DNA of 64,000 bases from the NCBI RefSeq assembly GCF_947623445.1, contig NC_135247.1:18478501-18542500 (forward strand). The letters are read 5' to 3'. Position 1 is the first letter of the stretch; the number at the start of each line of letters is the position of its first letter. The notes beneath the pieces were generated by a model that ran no database searches, was not told where the DNA came from, and saw only the letters and a list, made by a program, of their open reading frames with translations. Both the position numbers and the translations under genes were made by a program. This document shows, one piece after another, positions 10,961 through 64,000 of this stretch. This DNA comes from Clavelina lepadiformis (Eukaryota; Chordata; Ascidiacea; Aplousobranchia; Clavelinidae).

Positions 10961-11974
10961 CCACCTTGCAATCAGTTGAATGAAATGTTGTGAACTATGT
11001 ATCATTATCATAAGCTAACATGAGCTTTGTTCAACTAAAAGTTAGGATATTCCTACAAAAACAGATCGTTATATAATAATAACATAATAACAACCATGCT
11101 TAGTTTCAGTTCGACTATCAGTTGTAAACTTATTACACTGAAACAAGGACCGGTAAACCGCTAATTAAGGTGGGACTAAAGCAACGTGCGCTGTGAGCAG
11201 TTACGTGCTCTCCATGTTGATTGATCATACGCTCTGGAAAGAAGGGCGCTGTAAACAAGTATTGCAATACTCTTTCAACATCAACGTCTATGACAGCTAT
11301 ATTACAGTGCACTAAAGCAGAATATAGTAAAATGAAAAGCTCTGGGGCATAATATAAAAACCGTTTTAATACAATCGGGTTCAGTAAAGTATCTTCAACT
11401 TCTGCAACCTGTCGCTGGTTTGTTAATATTCGGAAATCTTGTTCAACTTCATTCTGAAGTGTGTGTTAGGACAACATGCTTTCATGTATCACAAGAATTT
11501 ACAAGGCGTGCCTTGTTTCACGTCTTAATTGAAACCTTACGCCCTCCTCGGACAGCGCAAACTGGTCGAGATGTTTCTTTTAAACGTTTCCACGTCTAAA
11601 CCATCTTAAAAAGCGGAGCAATTATTGAGTAACAAAATGCAATCTCTTTTTTCTTTGTGTAAACTTTCATACAAACTGAATATTGTTTCGTTCGATGATA
11701 TATATTTCATCACAAGGAACAGAAAATGAAAATGTTTGATATAATTACAACCCAATCAGACAGTTTCATCACGTATTTACGAAAATCAATTTCGGTAGAA
11801 TCTCGGCGCCGCAGTGACGAAGCGTTTTCAGGTTCAACAAATTACGAGCTACCTCGCTAACTTAATGATCGGTTTCAAATAGTTTTAAACTATTAGACGG
11901 CACATCAACATTTCAATACGTGAATGTTTTCCAAAATTGGTTAGACATTTGAGCGAGTTGTTGCAGACAAAACT
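10961..11974. other. Intergenic, no gene seen
   Basis: AT-rich sequence between the vWA/CCP relic (-) and the receptor gene (+). It should hold the receptor promoter. No clear core promoter or RNA gene was recognised. Confidence 0.45.
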
Positions 11975-12880
11975 ATGGATGAATTTAGCGGAGATAGTTT
12001 ATGGACAAAGTCGACTTCAAGCGCAGTATTCACTTCTGAGGGCAACAATGCAACGTTTCAAGGACATGTTCAAAGTCAAGGCCTTATTGAAGATATCTTG
12101 GCCGGTGTTCTGTTGCCAGTGAACTTTTATATGATGGTTGTGGCCGGAATATACCAGCATAAGTGCAACCAGGAAGGTCTCCGCCTCAGCAACACATTAC
12201 TTATGGTATCAGCGATAACCCAGTTTATTAGAATCATCTTCTTTGAAATTGAATTACGAGTGGGACACTTGTCCACAAAATTTTGCAAAGCTTTCAAGTT
12301 CATTACCATCTCTGCTTACTGTTTAGGGCGTTTGTTGCCCTTCGTCGTCCTATGGTTGCGACAAAACGGACTTAATAGATCAACTTTGACTTCCCCGCAC
12401 TTCAACTGCATTAAAATTTACAGCGTTATGGCGCTGGTCGGAATATTGTGCTGCCAAATCGCTTTTTCTGTCTTTCAGCTCGCCCTTGTTGATATGGCGT
12501 CGTCTCCGAGCGGTTGCCTTTACTTGGATGTGGTGACTTTTAAAAAGTACATCGTCATTTTCACACCGATTCATTTTACGATGTCGATCTTATCGCAAAT
12601 TGCGTTGGTGATACTCGTCATCTACCCAATCGTTGTGAATATGGCGCGGACTAGAGGCCGAGACAGTAAATTAAATTCGGCGGTGATTAGAGTAGCTCTA
12701 TGTACGTCGGGATGCATTGTGACCGACGTTGTGTTTCTGCTGCTTAAGTTAATCAGACCACCGGGAGCAGCCGCGTTGTACGTCGCCTTCTGGACCAACT
12801 ACAACAACACATTTATTGAGATATTTGTCTGGTTATCGTTTGTCGACTACAAGCATCGATTTTTCCCATTTGCTAAATAG
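11975..12880 (+). CDS. Intronless seven-transmembrane receptor-like protein
   Basis: A single uninterrupted frame of 301 residues. After an extracellular N-terminus of about 35 residues with one likely N-glycosylation site (NNATF), seven hydrophobic segments follow at roughly 37-60, 73-94, 106-130, 144-170, 188-219, 235-260 and 265-290. A cysteine starts helix 3 (FCKAF) and another lies in extracellular loop 2 (SGCLYLD), the pair normally joined by the GPCR disulfide. The DRY motif is absent (VLWLRQ at the end of helix 3). There is no NPxxY in helix 7, only a short basic tail (DYKHRFFPF). So it is GPCR-shaped but outside the classic rhodopsin signatures, and the ligand is unknown. The ATG is the first Met before helix 1. 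The lack of introns contrasts with its neighbours and suggests either an ancient intronless family or a retrocopy. AATAAA follows the stop by 8 bases. Confidence 0.7.
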   Translation: MDEFSGDSLWTKSTSSAVFTSEGNNATFQGHVQSQGLIEDILAGVLLPVNFYMMVVAGIYQHKCNQEGLRLSNTLLMVSAITQFIRIIFFEIELRVGHLSTKFCKAFKFITISAYCLGRLLPFVVLWLRQNGLNRSTLTSPHFNCIKIYSVMALVGILCCQIAFSVFQLALVDMASSPSGCLYLDVVTFKKYIVIFTPIHFTMSILSQIALVILVIYPIVVNMARTRGRDSKLNSAVIRVALCTSGCIVTDVVFLLLKLIRPPGAAALYVAFWTNYNNTFIEIFVWLSFVDYKHRFFPFAK

Positions 12881-50841: not shown

Positions 50842-52219
<1,378 letters not shown>

Positions 52220-52243
52220 ATTCCATTGCAGGGCAGAGAAACA

Positions 52244-52249
52244 AATAAA
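52244..52249 (+). terminator. Polyadenylation signal of the ficolin gene
   Basis: AATAAA begins 25 bases after the ficolin stop. Confidence 0.6.
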
Positions 52250-53539
52250 ATGGCTCTGATTTGAACGTAGCCTATTTGTGCACTGACAGTGATCTTCGAT
52301 TGCAGTAAGCTGTAGGAGGTTATGCACCGGCAAAGATAGTTGATACAGATGACTTTTGCAAGAACTGTACATCGACAAGTGGTTTTAGCTTTTAAACTCA
52401 CAGTCCACAATAAACACAAAAGCCTACAAAGCAATCAATCACCAGACAAAAGCAGCATCTTCTAAGCACAGTTATTGTTGAGTTGAGTGAGTTGCTTAGC
52501 TTTTTGAAAAGGCCCCACAGCTTCTTCTGGGGCCTTAAGTGTAGCCATAACCCAATATGTCTTACGTCGTTTCAATTCACATTAATTGAACCCTAGGCTA
52601 TTCAAAAACATGAAGACATTTATAATGTTCCTTAGATTCGTCTTTGGCGTAAAGTTGTTTTCTTCAAGTAATGCAGTTTATGTTTCAGTCATTCATTATC
52701 TATAACTTATTGTTTGAACAATGAATAGGAAGTGAGCTTCTTTCGATTTTCGTAATATTTGAAAAGAGTCGTCGTACTTTATGCCATTTTTTTCCCTCAA
52801 GTCAACTTTTATTCTATTCATATATGACGTCACAAAGCATGAACGACAACAACATTTCCCTGATTTGATCAGCTGCATAAAAGCTTGAGTAACTTTGAGT
52901 TAAGGTGAAGGCCAGAACTGTTCGAAAAAGGTTAAAGTTTTAGGTTTAGTTAAAGTGTTGAATGCACTAAAAGCGTTCAATTTTAAACATCTCATATTGC
53001 ATGTTGCTGAATAGTTTCTTGTGTCATTAGTATCACTGCTATGAGTAACTTCTCGACTTTTTGGGACACTGTTTAATACCGGGAATCACATACGCCATTG
53101 AAATAAGCGGTCTAGCTGTAGTTAGCGATTGGCCCACTGCCAGGCTGCCGGTTTGACGGCTGGTTGCCTTTGGGAACAGTAAGATTAATGAAAAAAAAAA
53201 AGTTCTTAGGTTGGGTTTCTTTTTGCAGCCTATTTAGATTTTCAGTGTTTGATCGCATGTAGCCTAAGTGCTTCTTCACCATTTAGTATTTACTGTCTCT
53301 GTTAGAAAGTTTGCTTTCAGTGCACCGGAAAAATGCGGCAATAAATGTAATGCTAATTACATTCTGTAATTCTGTGATTCTACGCCAGAGAAATCCAGCA
53401 CACAATACAAACTTCCCAGTAGGGTTTCCGGTTTACTGTGCAGTAAAAACAGTGTTACTGTGTTATGAAAATAACCTTACTAATAACAGTTGCTTTCAGT
53501 GTAACACTTTCCTTATGATTTTCTCTGACTTTGTGTCCA
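52250..53539. other. Intergenic, no gene seen
   Basis: Sequence between the ficolin polyadenylation site and the next plus-strand frame. I see no exon. Possible non-coding first exons of the downstream gene could lie here, because a good acceptor (TTTGTGTCCAG) ends at 53540. Confidence 0.4.
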
Positions 53540-53581
53540 GCGCCGTCGATTTGTACTGACCTAGAACATAGTACCAGGATC

Positions 53582-54970
53582 ATGGAGATAAATTCCAGCA
53601 GTCTAGGCAGTGAACCATTTCAATTTGTCAGAAGATTTTTAGATTTCATTTTCTTAACAGCCCATCAAAATGAGTCCAAGACGTCTTTCAAAGTGACAAT
53701 AAAAGCCATAAATAAAACCCTCGGTAAAGATGCGATGCGTCAGTACAAACTCATGGTTGATTTCGAAAATCGTCAAATCCCTTCAATGCTTCAACTAATT
53801 TCTAGTAACCCGTTTCTGACAACACAGCACAGTTTTGCAAAAGATGTCCAGATGTTTAGGGTGCAGCAGAACGACTCATCCCTGCAGATTGTAACTGAAA
53901 AACTGTTGGTTTCGCCTGGTGGTCAATTTGAGGTGGTTACTTCGGAAAGCAGTTGCACAAATAGCGGGGAAATTGGTTCTTGCCAGATGAGCTGCATCTT
54001 AACTCTTGTTCAGCAAACCGCGCTACTGTTCACTTCCAAACTAAAGTCATATCTCAATATACTGCATGCAGTCTGGCAGTCTTTGTATATCATTTCACTT
54101 CACTTGTTGGATGGAGAGAATGAAATAGACATCAGTTTCAACGACCAAACCGACGATGACGTGGTAAATGTACTGAGCGATGCGCTTGCGGTGTGCTCGA
54201 CTTTCTACTACAAACAACGCCAAGAATCAGATTTAATCGTAAAGAAAAGTAATCCTGTAGTTTTGATTGACAATACTAATTCACCAAATTGCATAAAGTT
54301 GAAGTTAAGCGTCATAGCAACAACTTTTAAGCTTTCGAACGACCGAGGTGGCATCTATGTGTACGTGCTCGGACCGGGGGGCCTTCCCGTAATCAACGAC
54401 AGTGACGTAAGCACGGATAGACTGGCTCCATGGGAAGATTACGGCATTAAAATGGATGAGGCATACGAACATGAAAAAGATGACATTTTGGAACCATTTC
54501 TGGCCTACAACATCAACACCGACTTCCAACAACCACTTAACATAGTCGCAGTAATAGCGATTGACGCTGTGGCCAATTGGCAAGTTATGGAAGAAAGAAT
54601 AGTTGCAACTAACTACGTACAAGGCAACATCGGGCAGATTTTAAGGAGCAATTCGTCTTTGGTGGAGCGCAGTTTCACGCAAGCCTTGAATCAACTTCTA
54701 CCTCGGACGAAAGATCTAAAACGAATGAGAACAAACGAGTTGTCTGTTGTGAACATTGTCACCTCTATACACGACATCGTCACACTGAGCACCAACGATA
54801 TATTCCGCGAGACGTGCATGTCGCTGATGGGCAGCGCCACCACCCACGGCCTACAAGATGACCTGCACACAGCCTTGACCTCGATTGCGCAGGAGAAACT
54901 TGAGCGAAAGCGACGGAAGAGTGACGCAAGCGCTGACGTCAATGAGCAACGGACATTACTTCAAAAATGA
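53582..54970 (+). CDS. Uncharacterised long protein-coding frame
   Basis: An uninterrupted frame of 462 residues from the first ATG, or slightly longer if entered by splicing at the acceptor ending at 53540, which keeps the same frame open. The protein has a leucine-rich region about 150-190 (QMSCILTLVQQTALLF), an acidic middle (DQTDDDVVNVLSDAL), an alternating hydrophobic segment about 245-270 (IYVYVLGPGG), and a helical, basic C-terminus (LERKRRKSD). There is no signal peptide and no clear membrane helix or catalytic motif. I do not recognise the family. A distant relation to an accessory protein such as TOPOVIBL came to mind but I cannot support it. Length and composition argue for a real gene. 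The absence of introns over 1.4 kb is unusual among its neighbours. Confidence 0.6.
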   Translation: MEINSSSLGSEPFQFVRRFLDFIFLTAHQNESKTSFKVTIKAINKTLGKDAMRQYKLMVDFENRQIPSMLQLISSNPFLTTQHSFAKDVQMFRVQQNDSSLQIVTEKLLVSPGGQFEVVTSESSCTNSGEIGSCQMSCILTLVQQTALLFTSKLKSYLNILHAVWQSLYIISLHLLDGENEIDISFNDQTDDDVVNVLSDALAVCSTFYYKQRQESDLIVKKSNPVVLIDNTNSPNCIKLKLSVIATTFKLSNDRGGIYVYVLGPGGLPVINDSDVSTDRLAPWEDYGIKMDEAYEHEKDDILEPFLAYNINTDFQQPLNIVAVIAIDAVANWQVMEERIVATNYVQGNIGQILRSNSSLVERSFTQALNQLLPRTKDLKRMRTNELSVVNIVTSIHDIVTLSTNDIFRETCMSLMGSATTHGLQDDLHTALTSIAQEKLERKRRKSDASADVNEQRTLLQK

Positions 54971-55282
54971 AACCATTAAGCCTCGCAATTTCTAGTTGCT
55001 GATGCTACTATAGTATTTTTCGTAGAGTTTGCGTGTATGCTTAAGTGCCTGAGCAATTGTTTGTTTTATTGTGGCTAAGCCGGCCAAGCATAAATCTTTG
55101 TGGTTGATATAGTCCTTTTATTTTCATTCATGCTCACGATTGACATCCAACATAGCATACCTCATAGTTATAGAATTGAAAGTTCCAACTAAAAGCAAAG
55201 CAAAACGTAGGCAACTGTTTGTCGGTGACAAACCAAAAAAAATGCTTAGCACAATGCAAGCAATTTGTGTTTGACACAAAAA
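54971..55282. other. Convergent intergenic spacer
   Basis: About 310 bases between the uncharacterised plus-strand gene and the MYCBP2 stop. On the minus strand an AATAAA lies near 55063-55068 and could end MYCBP2 transcripts. Nothing else was recognised. Confidence 0.4.
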
Positions 55283-58200
55283 TCAAAATGTGTGCGCATT
55301 TCTACAAACTCCACAACCAAGCGCAAATTCTTCTCCAGTTGGGGGATGCACCACATGGAGCGGGCATTCCTCGCCCTCAAGCTGCCTGGTCTTGTGGCCT
55401 GCAGGACAGTGGGGAAGGTCGGATTTAGGCAGGGCAGTGATGCGTTGAAAGTCGTCGTGGCAGGGCTGGCAGAAATGCGTGGTCCCAAAGCAGAAATACA
55501 CGGCGACGGAGCAGCAGTAACGACACTGGAAAGAGTTAAAATGTCGTCGATGACAATATAAAAAGCACACGATGTAGTAGAAATTATGAGATGTACCTTG
55601 TATTCAAGGAAATCTGTGCCGTGTTTCGGGCAAATCTGTGCGCAGGATACATCCGAACAAGCTCCGCAGATTAATTCTTGCGGATCGAATAAATCCGCCC
55701 CACCCGCTTCCGCGTCGCACCGCACTTCTCCGCCGTAGTAGGCCTATCCGCAAAAAACATCCCTCCGTCAATCACTGCAGCCTGGCGCAGTCATCGAAGC
55801 GTGACAGCATACGCAAGCCACAGATCTTACCTTCTTGCACTTGCAGCACATGTAGTAAGCGTATTTGCTGAGCGCGAACCCAGCCCGGTCGTTGAAGAAT
55901 CTCCCACCAATGGCGGTGATGGACTCGCATTCGTTCAAGCCTTCATACTCGAGACGTTGGAGCGCCTTCCTTTCAACTTCGCGAACCAAATCGCGAAGAG
56001 GCGCGAGGTAGCAATCGAGTGACGGATGTTTTATCTCGCACTGGAAGAAAATATTCAGGATAACATAAGCGACCCGAGTTGGAAAACACGGAGCAGTGAT
56101 TCCCAACCTTCTCATTCTTGCAGAGCCCTAGCTGCAATGCTTCCTTTCCGTGGTCCCCCAACTTTTAAAAATTCCCCAAAATTTTTACTTAACGGGCTAT
56201 TTATAAGAAGTTAAAGAATAACTTGCAGACGACTTGCGCCACTGCGAACCCTAGGTCGGGAAACACTGACTTGGGAGCATAACCTCATGATCCTACCTTG
56301 CATATGGAGCAATGCATGAAGGAGAATGTTATCCTTGGCCCGGCCCATTGCTTCTGAAGCTGCATCTCACAGCACGAGTAATGGAAGATGTGGCCGCAAT
56401 CCAACTAAGAATCAACAAATATTTAAAGTGTTGTCATTGAGTGTCGGCAGAGCGCAACGCAAATTAAGTGCCCTGTTAAGAACGAGGGTAGTCTAATAAG
56501 GAACCTATAAAGCTATATCTCAGTCAACGCCACCTGTACAGCTGGGGCGGCAGCAAGGGCGTCGGTGAAGCAGACCATGCACATATCGTCAGCATCCTGG
56601 TTCAACGCGGGATTGCAGGAGGGTTGGAGGCAGGGGAGACAGCTCTCCTCGTCCTTAACGCCTCCGCATAAATGCCCGCATTGGTGTGTGCGCGTGCACG
56701 CCTGGGCATAGTGATGTAACAATGACTAAATAATGTCTACAATGATGGCAACAACTTTCTGCCACATATGATCAGGCGATAACGAAAGCTTACCCTGGCT
56801 GCGTGTTGCTGACACGCGGGGTCGGAACAGACGTTGCCGACGGCCAGTTGTCCGTCATCTGACGACCTTCCGCAGAACCTACACACACCTGTCCCTGTGG
56901 TCACGTGTTTCCTCTGGCCTGGAGTCGAAGTACAACAAATTTAAATTTGTTTTGAAGTGCTCACTACTTCGTCATATAATGACTAAGATGATAACATAAG
57001 ATAACTAACATGATAGCCACATAAGTTGAACATTTGGAGCACTTCGCAGTGAAGAGGGTAAAGTCTGCTGTAGATGAACTAGTTACTATTTACCAACATT
57101 TCAGTAATGGGATTACGAGAATAAACATTTGTCACGGTGCAAACCACCTGCGCTTGACTCTGTTATTTAAGGAAGTTCAAAGAACTTTTTCGATTACTGG
57201 GGTTAGTTTCCGAAAATTGAAGAAATGGCCACAATTATGTGGTCGGGATTCTTATCGAAGAGGTTGGATTACTCCGACGTAACCATCCATGAAATTCACG
57301 ATGAAGATCTACTGCAAAGAATGAGACGCCGCATTGTGACGTAGTTGCTCACCGCCAGGCGCTCTCGATTTGAATTCGACGATCGCTTTCAGCGTGTTGG
57401 CATCGGCGAGAGCCATGAACCAGAAGAGTTTTATCCTCCCGCATCCTTCGTGGAGGTTGACCCGGATCGCCTCCTCCTCCTCCTTGAAGACCTAAAATTA
57501 TATGACGTCATCGTATAACGCACGCGCCGAAGACAATGCATGGTAGGGATGAAGTTCAAGAGCAGTTGTAGACAGGTATGAGCTATGACGTCAAACTTCA
57601 GAATAACTTTTCCCACTAAGATGAAGGATTTCTTTTTTAAAATAGAAACCGACCTGGCGTTGATGAGAGAGCGTCCTCTTGTGGAGATGGAGGTAGCGGT
57701 CGCATTCCGAGCACAGGTTGCCGCACTCATTGCAGAGAACTATGGCCGGTGTGCTACCGTCGTCGTGGTTGTCGCAGGTCAACTGTGAGAAACAAAATCA
57801 ACGAAACAATGATAAAAAATATGTTCTGAGCGTTGATGAAATATAGTTGAATGCACAGAGAGAAGCTGAAACAACACACGCATTCGGTGGTAGAGTTTAT
57901 TAGCAAAAACGACTAAGTGGCACAAGGCGAACAAAACACATTTACAGCAGAACACACGAAATCGAGAGTACAGCGTCGACATATGCACGCTATTGGTTGC
58001 TTCAAAATTTTATTATCCAATCATCGCCCAGTGCTCAGTGACGTCACAGAAGGACTTTCCATCAAGCCAAGATCATGTGCCCAGGCCTCCAACATTCGTC
58101 TGAAGGGAAGCCACGAGACTGGCGTCTCGGCCACGTTGTTTGCCGGATTGGCCGGGTCCTGTACAATAGGCGGGCATTCCCCCGACATGGAACCGCTGTA

Positions 58201-61200
58201 CTCGATATTGTAGTCTTTGGGGTCGTAAAACCGGGACCAAGCAATTCGCATTGGGGCTGGTCTGGATTTAAAAAAAAATTGAAAACTTCACGATCCAGTT
58301 TTTGCTGCAAGTTGACAAAAAGTTAGTGTGGTAACCTACGTTCTCACGTCATCAGATAACGATGTCATCACAACTACCTGGGATTCCCCGTGGAGAGAAT
58401 AAGTTTGACGAAACTTTTCATCACTGTTTTGTTGCTGGGCAAGCTTCCCTCCACCACGTGACAAGCGTTCTCATACGCTCGGATCAATAGCAGGGCGAGC
58501 AGATATGACGTAGGGCGCCACTTTCGCTCGTTCCAGTCGGCTGCGTTTCGCCAAAACTTGATAACCATGATGAGGTCTTTCACCTAAGAGTAAATGAAGA
58601 TAACGGTCAGTGGCAGAGCGCTTGGGCCTGAACAAACCCTGGCTGAGAGTGGACAGCCGGGCAACATGAAAGCTTCAAAATTCATTCGGATGAGTTTGTT
58701 AGGGCCGTTTATAAATAACGTGTCATCTACACTCCACAATGGTAAATATAACCAAGCAACAGCACAATCACAACCACGTGACGTCACGTCACGCTTCATA
58801 TCACACCTGGTCAGGTTGTTCCTTGATGAAGAGTTTCTGTCTCTGAGCAGCCGCGGGGCAGAACCAGGTGAGATTTTCCGAGGTTCTCTGCCTCAGCAAT
58901 TCCTCGTACAAAGCATCGAAGCCGCCCTCGTGCTGCCAGTCATACGCCGGCAGGATGTCGACCTCAACATCTTTATGCTTGAACTGAACTGAGTAATTCC
59001 TGGAAAAGAACAAGATAACTTACACCAGGACCTTTTAATTGGTCCCTCGCCAATGCATGTGTATTATGGCGAGGACTTTTAACAAAAGCAGACAAGAAGG
59101 CAGATGATTTCAAAAAAACAAGCTGCTGAGCCATGAGTGATAAAACTGCCGCTTGCTCACGTGTATGTGAAGTTCGAACAATCCGGCAGTTTCCCTTCGA
59201 TTGCGCCTTCTTCGAGCATTTTCGCTAGAGCGACCACGAACGAAGGCATCCACATCACGTGACCGATCCTAGGCAGATCGGAGCTTAGCAGAACGAAGTC
59301 GACGTCCCACCTATTGCTGCAGGTTGTATTCGTGCCGAGCGAACCTTCGATGAAAGACAATTCTTATCACGTCAACTGGATGATAGTTTAACTTAAGTTG
59401 AGGAGCGAATAGAAATATCGTGGAAAAACAGCATTAAATGCTTTGAAACATGACGGAAGTAGGAAAACGTAGATCGCTTGAAACACAACAACAGGCACTA
59501 AGCTAATTCAAAAACAAGTCGAGTTCAAGGATGCAATATTTTGTGGACCTACCAGATGTTATGACGCCGCTGACGTGAATGGCGGCCTTCGCTTCGATAA
59601 ATCGCGTCAATATTTCTTTGAACTCGCCCATGTATTGTTGGACGACGGCCAGCTCAGACAGATTGGGTCTAGCGTCAGACAACAGCCTAGAATAATTTAA
59701 CAAACTTGAATATACACGACCACTACACACTACACACGCTATGTACCAAGCACGGACAAGTGTTAATTGCGCTTTATAACGCACTGCAACGGCTTAATTC
59801 GGTTGAAAACCCGCAGAGTTCCCACGAACTGTTAATTTACTTACAAACTGAAGTTTTCGCGATAATCCGCCAACTTTTTTTGCCGTTCTTTCTCGTCAAG
59901 TTGTGGCGTGGCCTTGTATGGCCTCCCAACTCTAGTTTCACGCGCCTGTAACCTGCCTAGTTGAGGAAAAAGTTTTTTAGGCTTTTAACGAAAGGTAACA
60001 GTGTAGTGAGGTGTCATGTAAAACCAGCTCAACTTGCAAGTTTAAACCTACAAAGTTAAGCATTCCCGAGAACTAAAACAGGCCAAGAACTTAAGGCACC
60101 AACCTTTGCTCGCCGCCCGCTGAGACAAGTCCAACATGACGTCAGAGAGAAACTTTGAGAAGTCAGGAACAATCTGACTAATGACGTCATTCTTTTCATC
60201 ACCGATCAGTCGCGTTCGTTCGCGCGTCAAATTTTGACATTTCGAAGCTAAAAGCGCTTTCTGACGTAACAGTTCCTGATATCGCGCGTGGACTTGGGTT
60301 CGGTCTTTCCTGGGAAACAAAATCGCCCGCGATGTTACTGTGACGTCATAGAAGTCTTTACGGGGATAAAACCAAAAGTTTCGGCACTGATTCCAAAGTC
60401 GGCAAAGATCAGCAAACAAAAAACCTATCACACAGACCTGGCACTGTAGAGAAGTTTGCGCTCGCGATCGCCGGTGGGGGACGGGGTCGGGGTTTTATAA
60501 AGAAGATGATTTGAAACGATCTCGACGTGGATTGACACGTAAGAATACCTGATTGTTAGATGAAAGACATGTTACTAAAACGAAATAAACTTCCAACGAA
60601 ACATTCCACTTCGTTCACAATCCCTACAAAGCGAGTGGAAAGCTAAACCTGTCGTATCCGTCATCAACATCGGTCCTGTACGGGTTGTCGGTCAAGGCAA
60701 GATCCTCTACCGCCAAATCTGACTTTATGACGTCAGCGTCCGACCAGTTCTCGCCAAAGTAGCCAACCAGAGGTCCCTTTGTGTTGAGGGCGACGTTCAG
60801 GGAAACATCTTCTGTTCCTGTGGGGTGGGGGAGTTTAAATTTCTATTTCTGACGAATCAAAATCTTAAATCAGATGTGGCGATACAGCACAAGCAAGTAA
60901 ATCATATAACCAAAGGAAACCAACGTTACACAAGATATTTAAAGCCCAAAAGTCAATCAGTGCTTAGGTAATATCGACCACCAAGATAAGTGATACGGGT
61001 GTTAAAGTTATAATCGATATTTCTCGCATTGACCTTAGTCAGGTGTTACGTCACAAAGCATACCCGGTGAGACGAGGGTGGCGTTCCACATAACGTGACG
61101 GTGGTAGAACTCCATTAGACCGCTGGTTGTCTTCTCGTTCTGGTCCATCTTGAGCTTCAATTTCACCGCTTGCAGGGTCTTCAGCACCCAAGGGCACCCA

Positions 61201-63973
61201 CTGAGGTCCTCGAATGGGGTCACGCACACAGTGGGACATGAATTCGGTTCCGAGAGGGTCACGTGAACCTCGTTGACCTAAAAAATATGTTTTCAATGAC
61301 TTGGCAGCAAAAGCGCTCACAGAGTTGCTAAAAATTAACTTTACTACCAATTCGCGACCGCGTAAAGAGCAGATGCTTAACGCTTCAATTGCAAAATCCT
61401 GACAACACATTCATAACTACAAGTTGAACATGATCGCGCCCACCTCTGTCACAGACATGAACTCAACACCGACCCTCAGCTGGTTCTCCTTCAGGGATTT
61501 CATGAATTCGCCTTTATTGGGAAACGCGACCCCACTCGGCATCTCGCTGATAGAGTTTGGCGGGAAGGTGTGTTCGTACACGGTGGGCGACGGCTGCACA
61601 ATCACAAGCATTAACTTAACTTCATAAAATATATCGCCCTGGCATAAGAATTAAGATTGTGACGTGGTGACCGCTGTAATACGCCCACAAGCAAAATTTA
61701 AGCTTTTACAGCTGCGTTAGTAGGAGTTTGTCTTATTCAGCTGATCATTGACTTTTATCAAAACAAAAGTTATTTCAATCAAGTTGTGATGTGGTTTTCG
61801 CGGTGTAACTCCAAGCGAACCATTTGGAAGCATACACAATCTTTTGTGCGATTGTTACGCAGACATACGTCACAGGAAAAGACAAACCTGTCCTTCGATG
61901 AGGAATCTAGCCTTAATCTTGGCCAGGTGGTTGGATGTCGTGCAATGCAGGAACAACGCAACATTGCCTCTGTTCTCTACATCCGGGCCATCGGGAAATA
62001 TTCGAATCTGTACAAAATGGCCGACGTTGTAGATGAATTATATAATAACAGATAACAGCATATCGACAATTTTAACAAACATCTTTCCACATCACGAAGC
62101 TGATTACAAACTCGGTCGGGGGAATCAAAACAGAGAGGTAATTAACATGGCGTGGCGTGGCCTCACCTGCCAAGCAAAGCCACCAACACTGAAAGGCGAG
62201 GTGTGTACCATAGGATATGGATTTTCTTGCCCTACTTTAGGCAGTTCGACGTTTTCCTCAAACACGGTCTTATAAGCCTTGCATTCAAGCTCGACCAGAA
62301 CCTTGTTGCCGTCGAAGAAAAAACCCCCGTTCGGTTTCAGCAAAGTCTGCAAAGTTTAAGCATTAAACAATAAAGGTTCATAATGTAGTTCAAATACTTT
62401 CAAAGGTTTTTTACAATTGAAATCGATCCAAAGGATTTCCCCAAATCTCGATGACGTCATAGATTACAATTATTACCTCACGCCTGATAAACTCCTTCCA
62501 TCCCCATGACAACGCGTCATCATCACGCGAGAAGACCCTCCCAGTGGGGGGACTGTGGTAGGTGTAGTTGTTCTGGTAGTTGACCAGGTTGACCACGTTG
62601 AAGGAATAGACGGTGTGCACGCGCACGTCCTTGCCAAGGTTCACGATACGAAGATAAAAACTATGACGTGACAATTGGTGAGTTATGACGTCACAAGACG
62701 TAACAAACGAATCACGCAAGCGCGTACCTGAAATACTCGTTGTTGGGCTTGCCAGTGTAGACATACCAGCGGTGGCCGGCGAACTGAAACTCGCGGGACC
62801 TCACGTCAAAGCTCGAGATTTCCTGAGGATTCTCGACCAAGAAAGTGAAGATATGAGTTCGTTCCTTGTCTTGGAGAGCGAGGAATCTATGCAGCTGTAT
62901 GCTGGGAGCCATAACCTTCCACACTTACTGCCACTATCTCGCTAACTTGACGCATTCGCGAGCTGCTCTAACTGTTCTTGTTACCAAACTAAAATCTATC
63001 TGTGTTACATATGCGGCGGTAAATAAGCGGCTTGAAACTGTAGAAAAGCGCTTATGGATGGATTGACCTCAGTGGGGCGATGTTTTAATGATAAAGCTGT
63101 CAGGAGAACGACACTTAATCAAATCATGAGCACTCCACACTGCTCTAACACCGAACACTTATCTCTCTCGTTGTAAATATCAAATCTACTTGGAAACAGT
63201 CTAGTTATTGAAGCCTACGGTGAATACTTACAACTGCAATCGGCCAAACGTGGACAGCGGTTGCGAAAAAAACACAACTGACCGCTATTTACGAAACAGA
63301 TACGACCTTCCTTCGTACCGCTATATTGTTGGTTGAAAGTAATTCAAGCATCAATTGATTTGACAAACAGATGACAAACTACACGAGCGCAGCCCTACGG
63401 TACAAACTACAACAATGCTCACGTTGCTATGTCAGCGTAGAACGGGCGAAAGCGTTGCTACAGACTTGTATTAAAATCCTCAGCACAAGGAATTAAGGAG
63501 CTCGTTCCAGCATTACACCACATCACCTGCAACTAAGTCCGAAACCCACCTTGTTCTTCTGTGAGCTTGATCTTGCCGAGGAAAGCTTCTCCACGTGGTC
63601 ATGGTCCAGTACACACAGCGCTGCAAGCGCTTGCCACGTGATCCGGTTTCTAAGACAACAGCCTGCTTCCCGTTCCGCTTCGGTGAGTTTCATCAACGAC
63701 AAAATGGCTTCCGACACAGAACATTTGGTGACGATTTCCCAAACCGTGCTAATCTTACCCTGAAAGGCGAATAATATGTTAATATACTCTTCATATAAGA
63801 GCATATAAAACAACAACCCATACAAACTGGTGTTGCGGGCTTCGTCGAAAGAACAAGTCACAGCTTAATAACGTACCGCGGACATGTCACTGAGCAGTCT
63901 GATGATCGCTTCAACAATGGACCGGTCTTGTATGGAACCGTGCATCCACCATGCTGGATGGTCCAGTTCTGGT
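55283..63973 (-). CDS. mycbp2: MYCBP2 / Highwire / RPM-1 E3 ubiquitin ligase, C-terminal part
   Basis: Giant atypical RING E3 ligase controlling axon and synapse development. Only the last exons are in the window: 63973-63877, 63759-63550, 57782-57654, 57491-57353, 56918-56794, 56701-56534, 56404-56297, 56040-55831, 55743-55597 and 55525-55283. All join in phase, about 525 residues, and more exons lie beyond the right edge. Matches to the family in order: [29 protein letters not shown], the zinc segment [15 protein letters not shown]...[29 protein letters not shown], the RING-type CMVCF ... [12 protein letters not shown] ... CSICK, then the Cys/His-rich tandem-cysteine C-terminus ([38 protein letters not shown] then stop). 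The tandem-cysteine part carries the esterification-type transfer activity known for this enzyme. The intron 63549-57783 contains a complete separate gene on the same strand. Confidence 0.95.
58009..58014 (-). terminator. Polyadenylation signal of the nested MATH-OAS gene
   Basis: On the minus strand AATAAA lies 6 bases beyond the OAS stop codon, well inside the MYCBP2 intron. It supports independent 3' end formation. No AATAAA follows the alternative stop after the MATH part (near 60.63 kb). Confidence 0.6.
58021..62912 (-). CDS. MATH (TRAF-C-like) - OAS nucleotidyltransferase fusion, nested in mycbp2
   Basis: Fifteen minus-strand exons: 62912-62728, 62660-62477, 62346-62167, 62007-61888, 61593-61444, 61277-61064, 60817-60649, 60548-60438, 60309-60104, 59956-59845, 59686-59553, 59344-59161, 58999-58807, 58583-58378 and 58261-58021. 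They total 2,589 bases with matching phases at every junction: 862 residues. Residues about 20-165 form one MATH domain ([18 protein letters not shown]); about 173-273 form a second ([28 protein letters not shown]). A third beta-rich segment runs to about 420, then a charged helical linker (440-545). From about 545 to the end it is an OAS-type enzyme: GS motif (SGSLGTNT, 588-595), metal ligands Asp602 and Asp604 (DVDFVLL), third Asp664 (EVDILPAYD), [10 protein letters not shown], and the OAS C-terminal signature (DPANPANNV ... AEAW-like EAWAHD). OAS enzymes make 2'-5' oligoadenylates on sensing dsRNA; MATH domains bind receptor tails or ligase substrates. The ATG at 62912 has in-frame stops just upstream. 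The weakest join is 60649/60548 (donor GTTTAG). Without it the MATH part ends at a nearby stop and the OAS part would lack a start. Confidence 0.8.
62913..63549 (-). other. MYCBP2 intron segment carrying the promoter of the nested gene
   Basis: About 640 bases between the upstream MYCBP2 exon and the nested gene's ATG. No exon-like frame is seen. The nested gene's transcription start must be here unless it uses a splice leader. I could not identify a core promoter. Confidence 0.4.
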
Positions 63974-64000
63974 CTACACACACAAACTGGTATGACTACT

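Follow-up and report, generated by a model that had tools for sequence, protein, structure and literature searches.

OAS enzymes are a means by which vertebrates signal the presence of virus. The role of OAS in animals without interferon or RNase L is a question on which a natural fusion of an OAS with a MATH docking domain, found near the vertebrates, would bear; such a fusion would indicate the place where the signal arises and suggest partners. Here we ask whether a locus of the ascidian Clavelina lepadiformis encodes a fusion of this kind. The window, that is, the whole stretch of 64,000 bases analysed, covers positions 18,478,501-18,542,500 of chromosome 8 (OX392446.1; contig C8), and a preliminary description of it had claimed a single MATH-OAS protein. 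Judging from the DNA, we consider it likely that one gene, nested in MYCBP2, encodes two MATH domains, a third module, a basic linker and an OAS-family nucleotidyltransferase with an intact metal site, and that docking or clustering of this protein would lead to an oligonucleotide signal.

The gene was rebuilt on the minus strand (62912-58021) as 15 exons and 14 introns forming a single 862-codon frame (Table 1). The 14 introns run from GT to AG throughout, measure 67 to 294 bases and join in phase. The exons, coordinates and 862-residue frame of the preliminary description were borne out by this model, as was the correct phase that it had reported at the 14 junctions. An in-frame TAA begins 15 bases 5' of the start ATG. 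The frame stays free of stops in 36 combinations of splice sites. Among the 6 of these 36 that were listed, the variants were confined to the linker and left the matches of MATH domains 1 and 2 and of the OAS core untouched; among the same 6, the ends of exons 8 and 9 varied by four codons and a second open frame could be read in exon 10. Residues 507-543 are therefore the least certain part of the predicted protein.

Table 1. Features of the MATH-OAS locus, in window coordinates
Feature	Position	Strand	Content
Exon 1	62728..62912	-	start Met, MATH domain 1, residues 1-61
Exon 2	62477..62660	-	MATH domain 1; Pfam, exon model
Exon 3	62167..62346	-	end of MATH 1, start of MATH 2
Exon 4	61888..62007	-	MATH domain 2; MATH_2 6.3e-7, 30.1 bits, cut-off 32
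Exon 5	61444..61593	-	end of MATH 2, boundary set by eye
Exon 6	61064..61277	-	third module; without Pfam match or MATH profile support
Exon 7	60649..60817	-	third module; held-out coding score 0.540
Exon 8	60438..60548	-	joining exon: third module ends, linker starts; held-out coding score 0.254
Exon 9	60104..60309	-	basic linker, includes Met496 (60137); coding score -0.045
Exon 10	59845..59956	-	basic linker; second open frame possible
Exon 11	59553..59686	-	start of OAS nucleotidyltransferase core
Exon 12	59161..59344	-	G589-S590, D602, D604
Exon 13	58807..58999	-	D664 and acceptor-pocket region
Exon 14	58378..58583	-	OAS1_C (Pfam)
Exon 15	58021..58261	-	OAS1_C (Pfam), TGA stop
Poly(A) signal AATAAA	58009..58014	-	six bases past the OAS TGA
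Enclosing MYCBP2 intron	57783..63549	-	holds the entire MATH-OAS gene

A Pfam scan of the 862-residue frame matched MATH_2 (PF22486; E = 3.6e-18, best stretch residues 33-139), MATH (PF00917; E = 3.2e-7) and OAS1_C (PF10421; E = 7e-16, residues 680-845), and no family beyond these three at E-values up to 10. MATH and OAS1_C were the two families that the preliminary description had expected such a scan to find. Scanned alone, MATH domain 1 scored 43.4 bits against the Pfam cut-off of 32, and MATH domain 2 scored 30.1 bits, slightly below it. The PDB matches of the MATH part were to SPOP chains and were weak (best 0.029). The number of recognisable MATH domains in the predicted protein is two.

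By eye, residues 274-428 resemble a diverged third MATH domain. This assignment was not adopted: the Pfam scan of the segment gave zero matches, and comparison with a MATH profile gave no support either. The segment scored 12.9 when MATH 2 was left out of the profile and 11.6 when it was included, whereas the ten highest-scoring of 100 shuffles reached 15.1 to 19.2. This comparison is insensitive, because the Pfam-supported MATH 1 itself reached just 15.4 (MATH 2, 24.0). The segment is referred to here as the third module, with no family assigned. The linker that follows it (residues 429-543) is basic, with a pI of 10.2 and a net charge of +11.

The OAS part was recognised by several models. 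Its OAS1_C match scored 58.8 bits against a cut-off of 19.9, and human OAS1 (PDB 4ig8) matched residues 578-844 at 3e-13. Cyclase models matched as well: the NCBI profile for CBASS oligonucleotide cyclases at 3.5e-10 (residues 560-828; 39.5 bits, far under its curated cut-off of 200) and a PADLOC cyclase model at 1.5e-9. A phmmer alignment to pig OAS1 identified the GS motif as G589-S590 and the first two catalytic aspartates as D602 and D604; the third is D664, within VEVDILPA. The three aspartates and the GS loop thus lie where the preliminary description had put them. Having OAS1_C over the cut-off, the GS motif and all three metal-binding aspartates, the protein belongs to the OAS superfamily, which PF10421 marks (PMC10732462).

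Outside the metal site, the sequence departs from that of vertebrate OAS1. In the same alignment, the positions of pig K59, K65, K203 and R209 are occupied by T, T, Q and M, and K212 is kept; K59, K65 and K203 count among the basic residues of the dsRNA face. The positions of pig R194 and R198 are Lys; the corresponding human residues, R195 and K199, are required for RNA activation of OAS1 (PMC3961380). In the acceptor pocket, S186 is replaced by C697, T187 by P698 and T190 by A701, and Q193 is kept as Q704. Sponge enzymes are no longer strictly 2'-5' specific, which has been tied to changes of T187 and T190 (PMC6307210), and P698 and A701 stand in place of the Thr187/Thr190 pair of a vertebrate OAS1-type 2-5A synthetase. 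Since the dsRNA face and the acceptor pocket are both altered, a nucleic-acid-triggered 2-5A synthase cannot be taken as established, and the product of the OAS part is not to be assumed even with the metal site intact. The claim that the enzyme should be catalytically competent is supported only for the metal site, where the aspartates and the GS motif are kept. The OAS part probably differs from a textbook OAS, because several dsRNA-face residues and two pocket threonines are changed and because IRE1 accounts for the sole RNase L-type domain that the genome search detected (see below).

We then asked how firmly the two halves are joined. A codon model was trained on 942 codons with exons 7 to 11 held out. 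The modelled frame scored best in 5/5 of these exons and above 42/42 intron frame values, in a comparison whose background was built from these same introns and so favours this result. Exon 9 was the weakest of the five (the portion before Met496 scored -0.06). A small splice matrix was made from the 12 other introns of the gene and set against the GT and AG sites between 63.1 and 57.0 kb. Donor 8 scored 7.97, a value reached by 3.5% of GT sites, and acceptor 9, which forms with it the junction between the halves, is in the top 3.7% of AG sites. By the same measure donor 7, whose score is reached by 14.7% of GT sites, is ordinary, and donor 10, at 60%, is poor. The matrix is coarse, because several undoubted acceptors score poorly too (up to 48%). 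The 94 codons of exons 8 and 9 before Met496 are free of stops in the frame set by splicing, whereas the other two frames carry 3 and 7 stops before Met496. The chance of 94 stop-free codons was 0.0029 under an intron Markov model and 0.0098 by shuffling, both for a fixed frame and with the freedom of splice choice uncounted.

On these grounds, a single fused frame is quite probably the best reading of the DNA. What speaks against it is the low coding score of exon 9, the weakness of donors 7 and 10, the second open frame of exon 10 and the finding that no second copy in the genome repeats the MATH-then-OAS order. The fusion claim of the preliminary description stands in so far as one open frame covers both domain families, but its statement that the OAS part has no visible start Met of its own was wrong: Met496 lies in frame and 5' of the OAS core, so the locus could instead be two abutting genes. 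In favour of one gene, residue 336 and Met496 have no in-frame ATG between them. The frame of exon 9 also stays open through intron 8 (60494-60048, minus strand), so that the OAS frame is stop-free from 60494 even if unspliced, but here too no in-frame ATG lies ahead of 60137. Two codons past donor 8, a TGA at 60430 could end a MATH-only protein.

The alternative would be that exons 1 to 8 form a MATH gene, ending at the TGA past donor 8, and that an abutting OAS gene on the same strand starts at Met496, possibly as an operon with spliced-leader trans-splicing. In an ascidian operon pair, a poly(A) signal lies immediately 5' of the acceptor of the downstream gene. No AATAAA or ATTAAA precedes the acceptors of exons 8 to 12 in this way, nor does either occur between 60649 and 59039 (the ATTAAA at 59039 is in intron 12), which argues against two genes. 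Past the stop codon of the OAS part, AATAAA stands at 58014 and again at 57901; one further AATAAA, at 61518, is inside exon 5. The rarer hexamers TATAAA (60499, exon 8), AGTAAA (59841) and TATAAA (59778) do occur between 60649 and 59039; the first could act as a rare poly(A) signal. The earlier statement that no polyadenylation signal follows the MATH part holds for AATAAA and ATTAAA. The position of Met496, the strength of acceptor 9 and the coding score of exon 9 ahead of Met496 also fit two genes, and the tunicate precedents are pertinent. Operons hold about one fifth of Ciona genes, which abut directly and are often mispredicted as fusions (PMC2760879), and the Botryllus fuhc locus was described first as one gene and later as two, 227 bp apart (PMC3691228); rare fuhc transcripts splice across both genes (PMC3691228). 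Against this, donor 8 is strong, exons 8 and 9 are open specifically in the frame set by splicing, and two separate genes would leave either exon 8, taken as an OAS exon, or 57 codons of exon 9 open though untranslated. We regard two abutting genes as unlikely.

The other readings concern what a fused locus might make, or whether it makes anything. The stop at 60430 and the start at Met496 are what would be needed for the locus to yield, besides the long fusion, a MATH-only form with intron 8 kept and an OAS-only form; this overlaps with the one-gene reading and is a minority prospect, the short MATH-only form having neither AATAAA nor ATTAAA. Also within the one-gene reading, the OAS part could be catalytically dead or repurposed as a scaffold, as in human OASL. 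In favour are the replacements at the pig K59, K65, K203 and R209 positions and the documented loss of OAS activity in human OASL1 and in a number of mouse members, where the three aspartates are changed (PMC6307210). Against it, the fusion protein keeps all three together with the GS motif; we find a dead or repurposed enzyme doubtful. That the gene is decaying, unexpressed and open by chance is very improbable: its nesting on the same strand in a host intron counts in favour, but 862 codons are open across 15 exons, two domain families score far over their Pfam cut-offs and the catalytic residues are kept.

Taking the locus as one fusion gene, we compared its product with known systems. A description of MATH joined to OAS in one protein was not found in a search of open-access papers. 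In a study of the OAS superfamily (PMC10732462), the terms 'math' and 'traf' appear once each, both within the reference list, and the main text of a preprint on cGAS-like receptors (PMC9980059) holds no whole-word MATH. A close parallel comes from metazoan proteins that unite a TRADD-N domain of the DEDD2 clade with an oligoadenylate synthase (PMC8195603). There, too, the OAS carries an adaptor domain belonging to the TNFR/TRAF pathway, but the domain here is MATH, and Pfam shows no TRADD-N or death-like domain in the fusion protein. The same source reports that vertebrate TRADD-N binds the MATH domain of TRAF2 and that TRADD-N of another clade has MATH as one of its attached domains, although MATH is not a partner that TRADD-N always has (PMC8195603). 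The phrase "new innate immune architecture" used in the preliminary description can be kept for the MATH-OAS order as a candidate, this order having been met in none of the papers searched, but the published OAS and TRADD-N fusion (PMC8195603) limits how new it is. The fusion would seem to be a combination of domains not met in the papers searched; as a type, an OAS or cGLR joined to an adaptor is already known.

The protein shares OAS1_C, the GS motif and the three aspartates with the OAS superfamily (OAS1, OAS2, OAS3, OASL); it differs in its N-terminal MATH array and basic linker, in the changed dsRNA-face and pocket residues, and in having no UBL, in a genome where no RNase L was found. 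OASL resembles it in that the OAS unit carries an additional domain for protein docking, but has a C-terminal UBL, whereas the fusion protein has N-terminal MATH and keeps the three aspartates (PMC6307210); the Pfam scan of the fusion protein showed no ubiquitin-like domain. The lower metazoans examined by others had no UBL on OAS and no RNase L (PMC6307210). Ankyrin, TPR or death domains occur on cGAS-like receptors, and these fusions likewise combine a second-messenger nucleotidyltransferase with an interaction domain (PMC9980059, a preprint), but the cGLR superfamily (Mab21, PF03281) is only distantly related to OAS (PMC10732462). With the MATH proteins TRAF, SPOP and USP7 the product has the MATH domain in common, domain 1 being over the Pfam cut-off, but Pfam found no RING, zinc finger, BTB or protease domain in it. 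Members of the TRAF family carry RING or TRAF zinc fingers followed by a C-terminal MATH domain; the fusion protein, with neither finger in the Pfam scan and with MATH at its N-terminal end, falls outside that family.

To look for other copies and for pathway genes, we searched the species' own genome (209,060,895 bases in 95 contigs; the published assembly GCA_947623445.1 has 210.1 Mb in 102 scaffolds, PMC10884593). In protein searches, 8/8 matches of the OAS part and 9/9 of the MATH part fell in the MATH-OAS gene itself, and neither part gave another copy. An exon-wise Pfam search of the genome found OAS1_C on contig C4 only (2 matches) and MATH_2 14 times, on C2, C6 and C7 and not on C4. 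As the Pfam search missed the gene in the window and the protein searches missed the OAS on C4, distant copies may escape both. The C4 matches mark a second, more canonical OAS gene (C4:4,342,969-4,344,987, the extent of the two matches), for which joined exon pieces (C4:4342000-4351999) gave OAS1_C at 2.4e-19. It keeps T187, Q193, R198, R209 and K212, but not S186, T190, R194 or K203. Upstream of it, on the same strand, a piece at about 4,347,432 resembles a C2H2 finger (zf-C2H2 9.5e-5, below the cut-off).

The RNase L-type domain Ribonuc_2-5A (PF06479) was found as two stretches of one locus (C4:5500948-5501625), which is IRE1 (2.7e-57). As this is the sole such locus, no RNase L was found, by an exon-by-exon search of the genome that cannot prove absence. 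STING gave 0 matches in a search of a kind uninformative on absence, and 0/4 candidate stretches were confirmed as viral relatives of the OAS part.

These features suggest the following course of events. One transcript of the MATH-OAS gene would yield a protein whose MATH array most likely docks the OAS enzyme on a partner, or clusters it there. Once clustered or bound by ligand, the OAS part would most likely make a short oligonucleotide signal. The product may be of mixed linkage instead of being 2'-5' oligoadenylate alone, and its synthesis may not be strictly controlled by dsRNA; ancestral OASs have been argued to be independent of dsRNA and to make both 2'-5' and 3'-5' linkages (PMC6307210). 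The readout would be something other than RNase L, and the protein may have an immune role. The coupling to TRAF-like signalling or ubiquitination proposed in the preliminary description is conjectural. A more specific version, in which a TRAF-type MATH array puts the OAS at a receptor or ubiquitin-ligase complex and clustering, not dsRNA, triggers a mixed 2'-5'/3'-5' oligonucleotide with a reader other than RNase L, is speculative and improbable as stated. If it were true, an animal lineage that lacks interferon would have a second-messenger pathway coupled to TNFR/TRAF. The fusion in itself would make MATH the second TNFR/TRAF-pathway module on an OAS, after TRADD-N.

The MATH-OAS gene shares its strand with the E3 ligase gene MYCBP2 and lies wholly inside one of its introns. 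Because the poly(A) signals of the nested gene are within this intron, transcription of the host gene has to pass them. The host was recognised by its RING/TC exons at 56.6-55.3 kb, which match PDB 5o6c at 3.5e-127. A B-box-like piece at 57782 and an exon ending at 63550 we take to be MYCBP2 from their position and sequence; a PDB search with the former and a Pfam scan of the latter returned no match. Of nine PHR-domain matches in the genome, five lie on the same strand at C8:18,559,545-18,564,008 and four on contig C2. G+C content is 43-47% at window positions 52001-64000 and 35-42% in the remaining window; that of chromosome 8 is 35.0% (PMC10884593). Elsewhere in the window, open frames at 7737-5931 on the minus strand resemble, by eye, the CUB and EGF-like domains of a MASP/C1r-type complement protease, and a 311-codon open frame with hydrophobic stretches at 11945-12880 on the plus strand looks like a multi-helix membrane protein.
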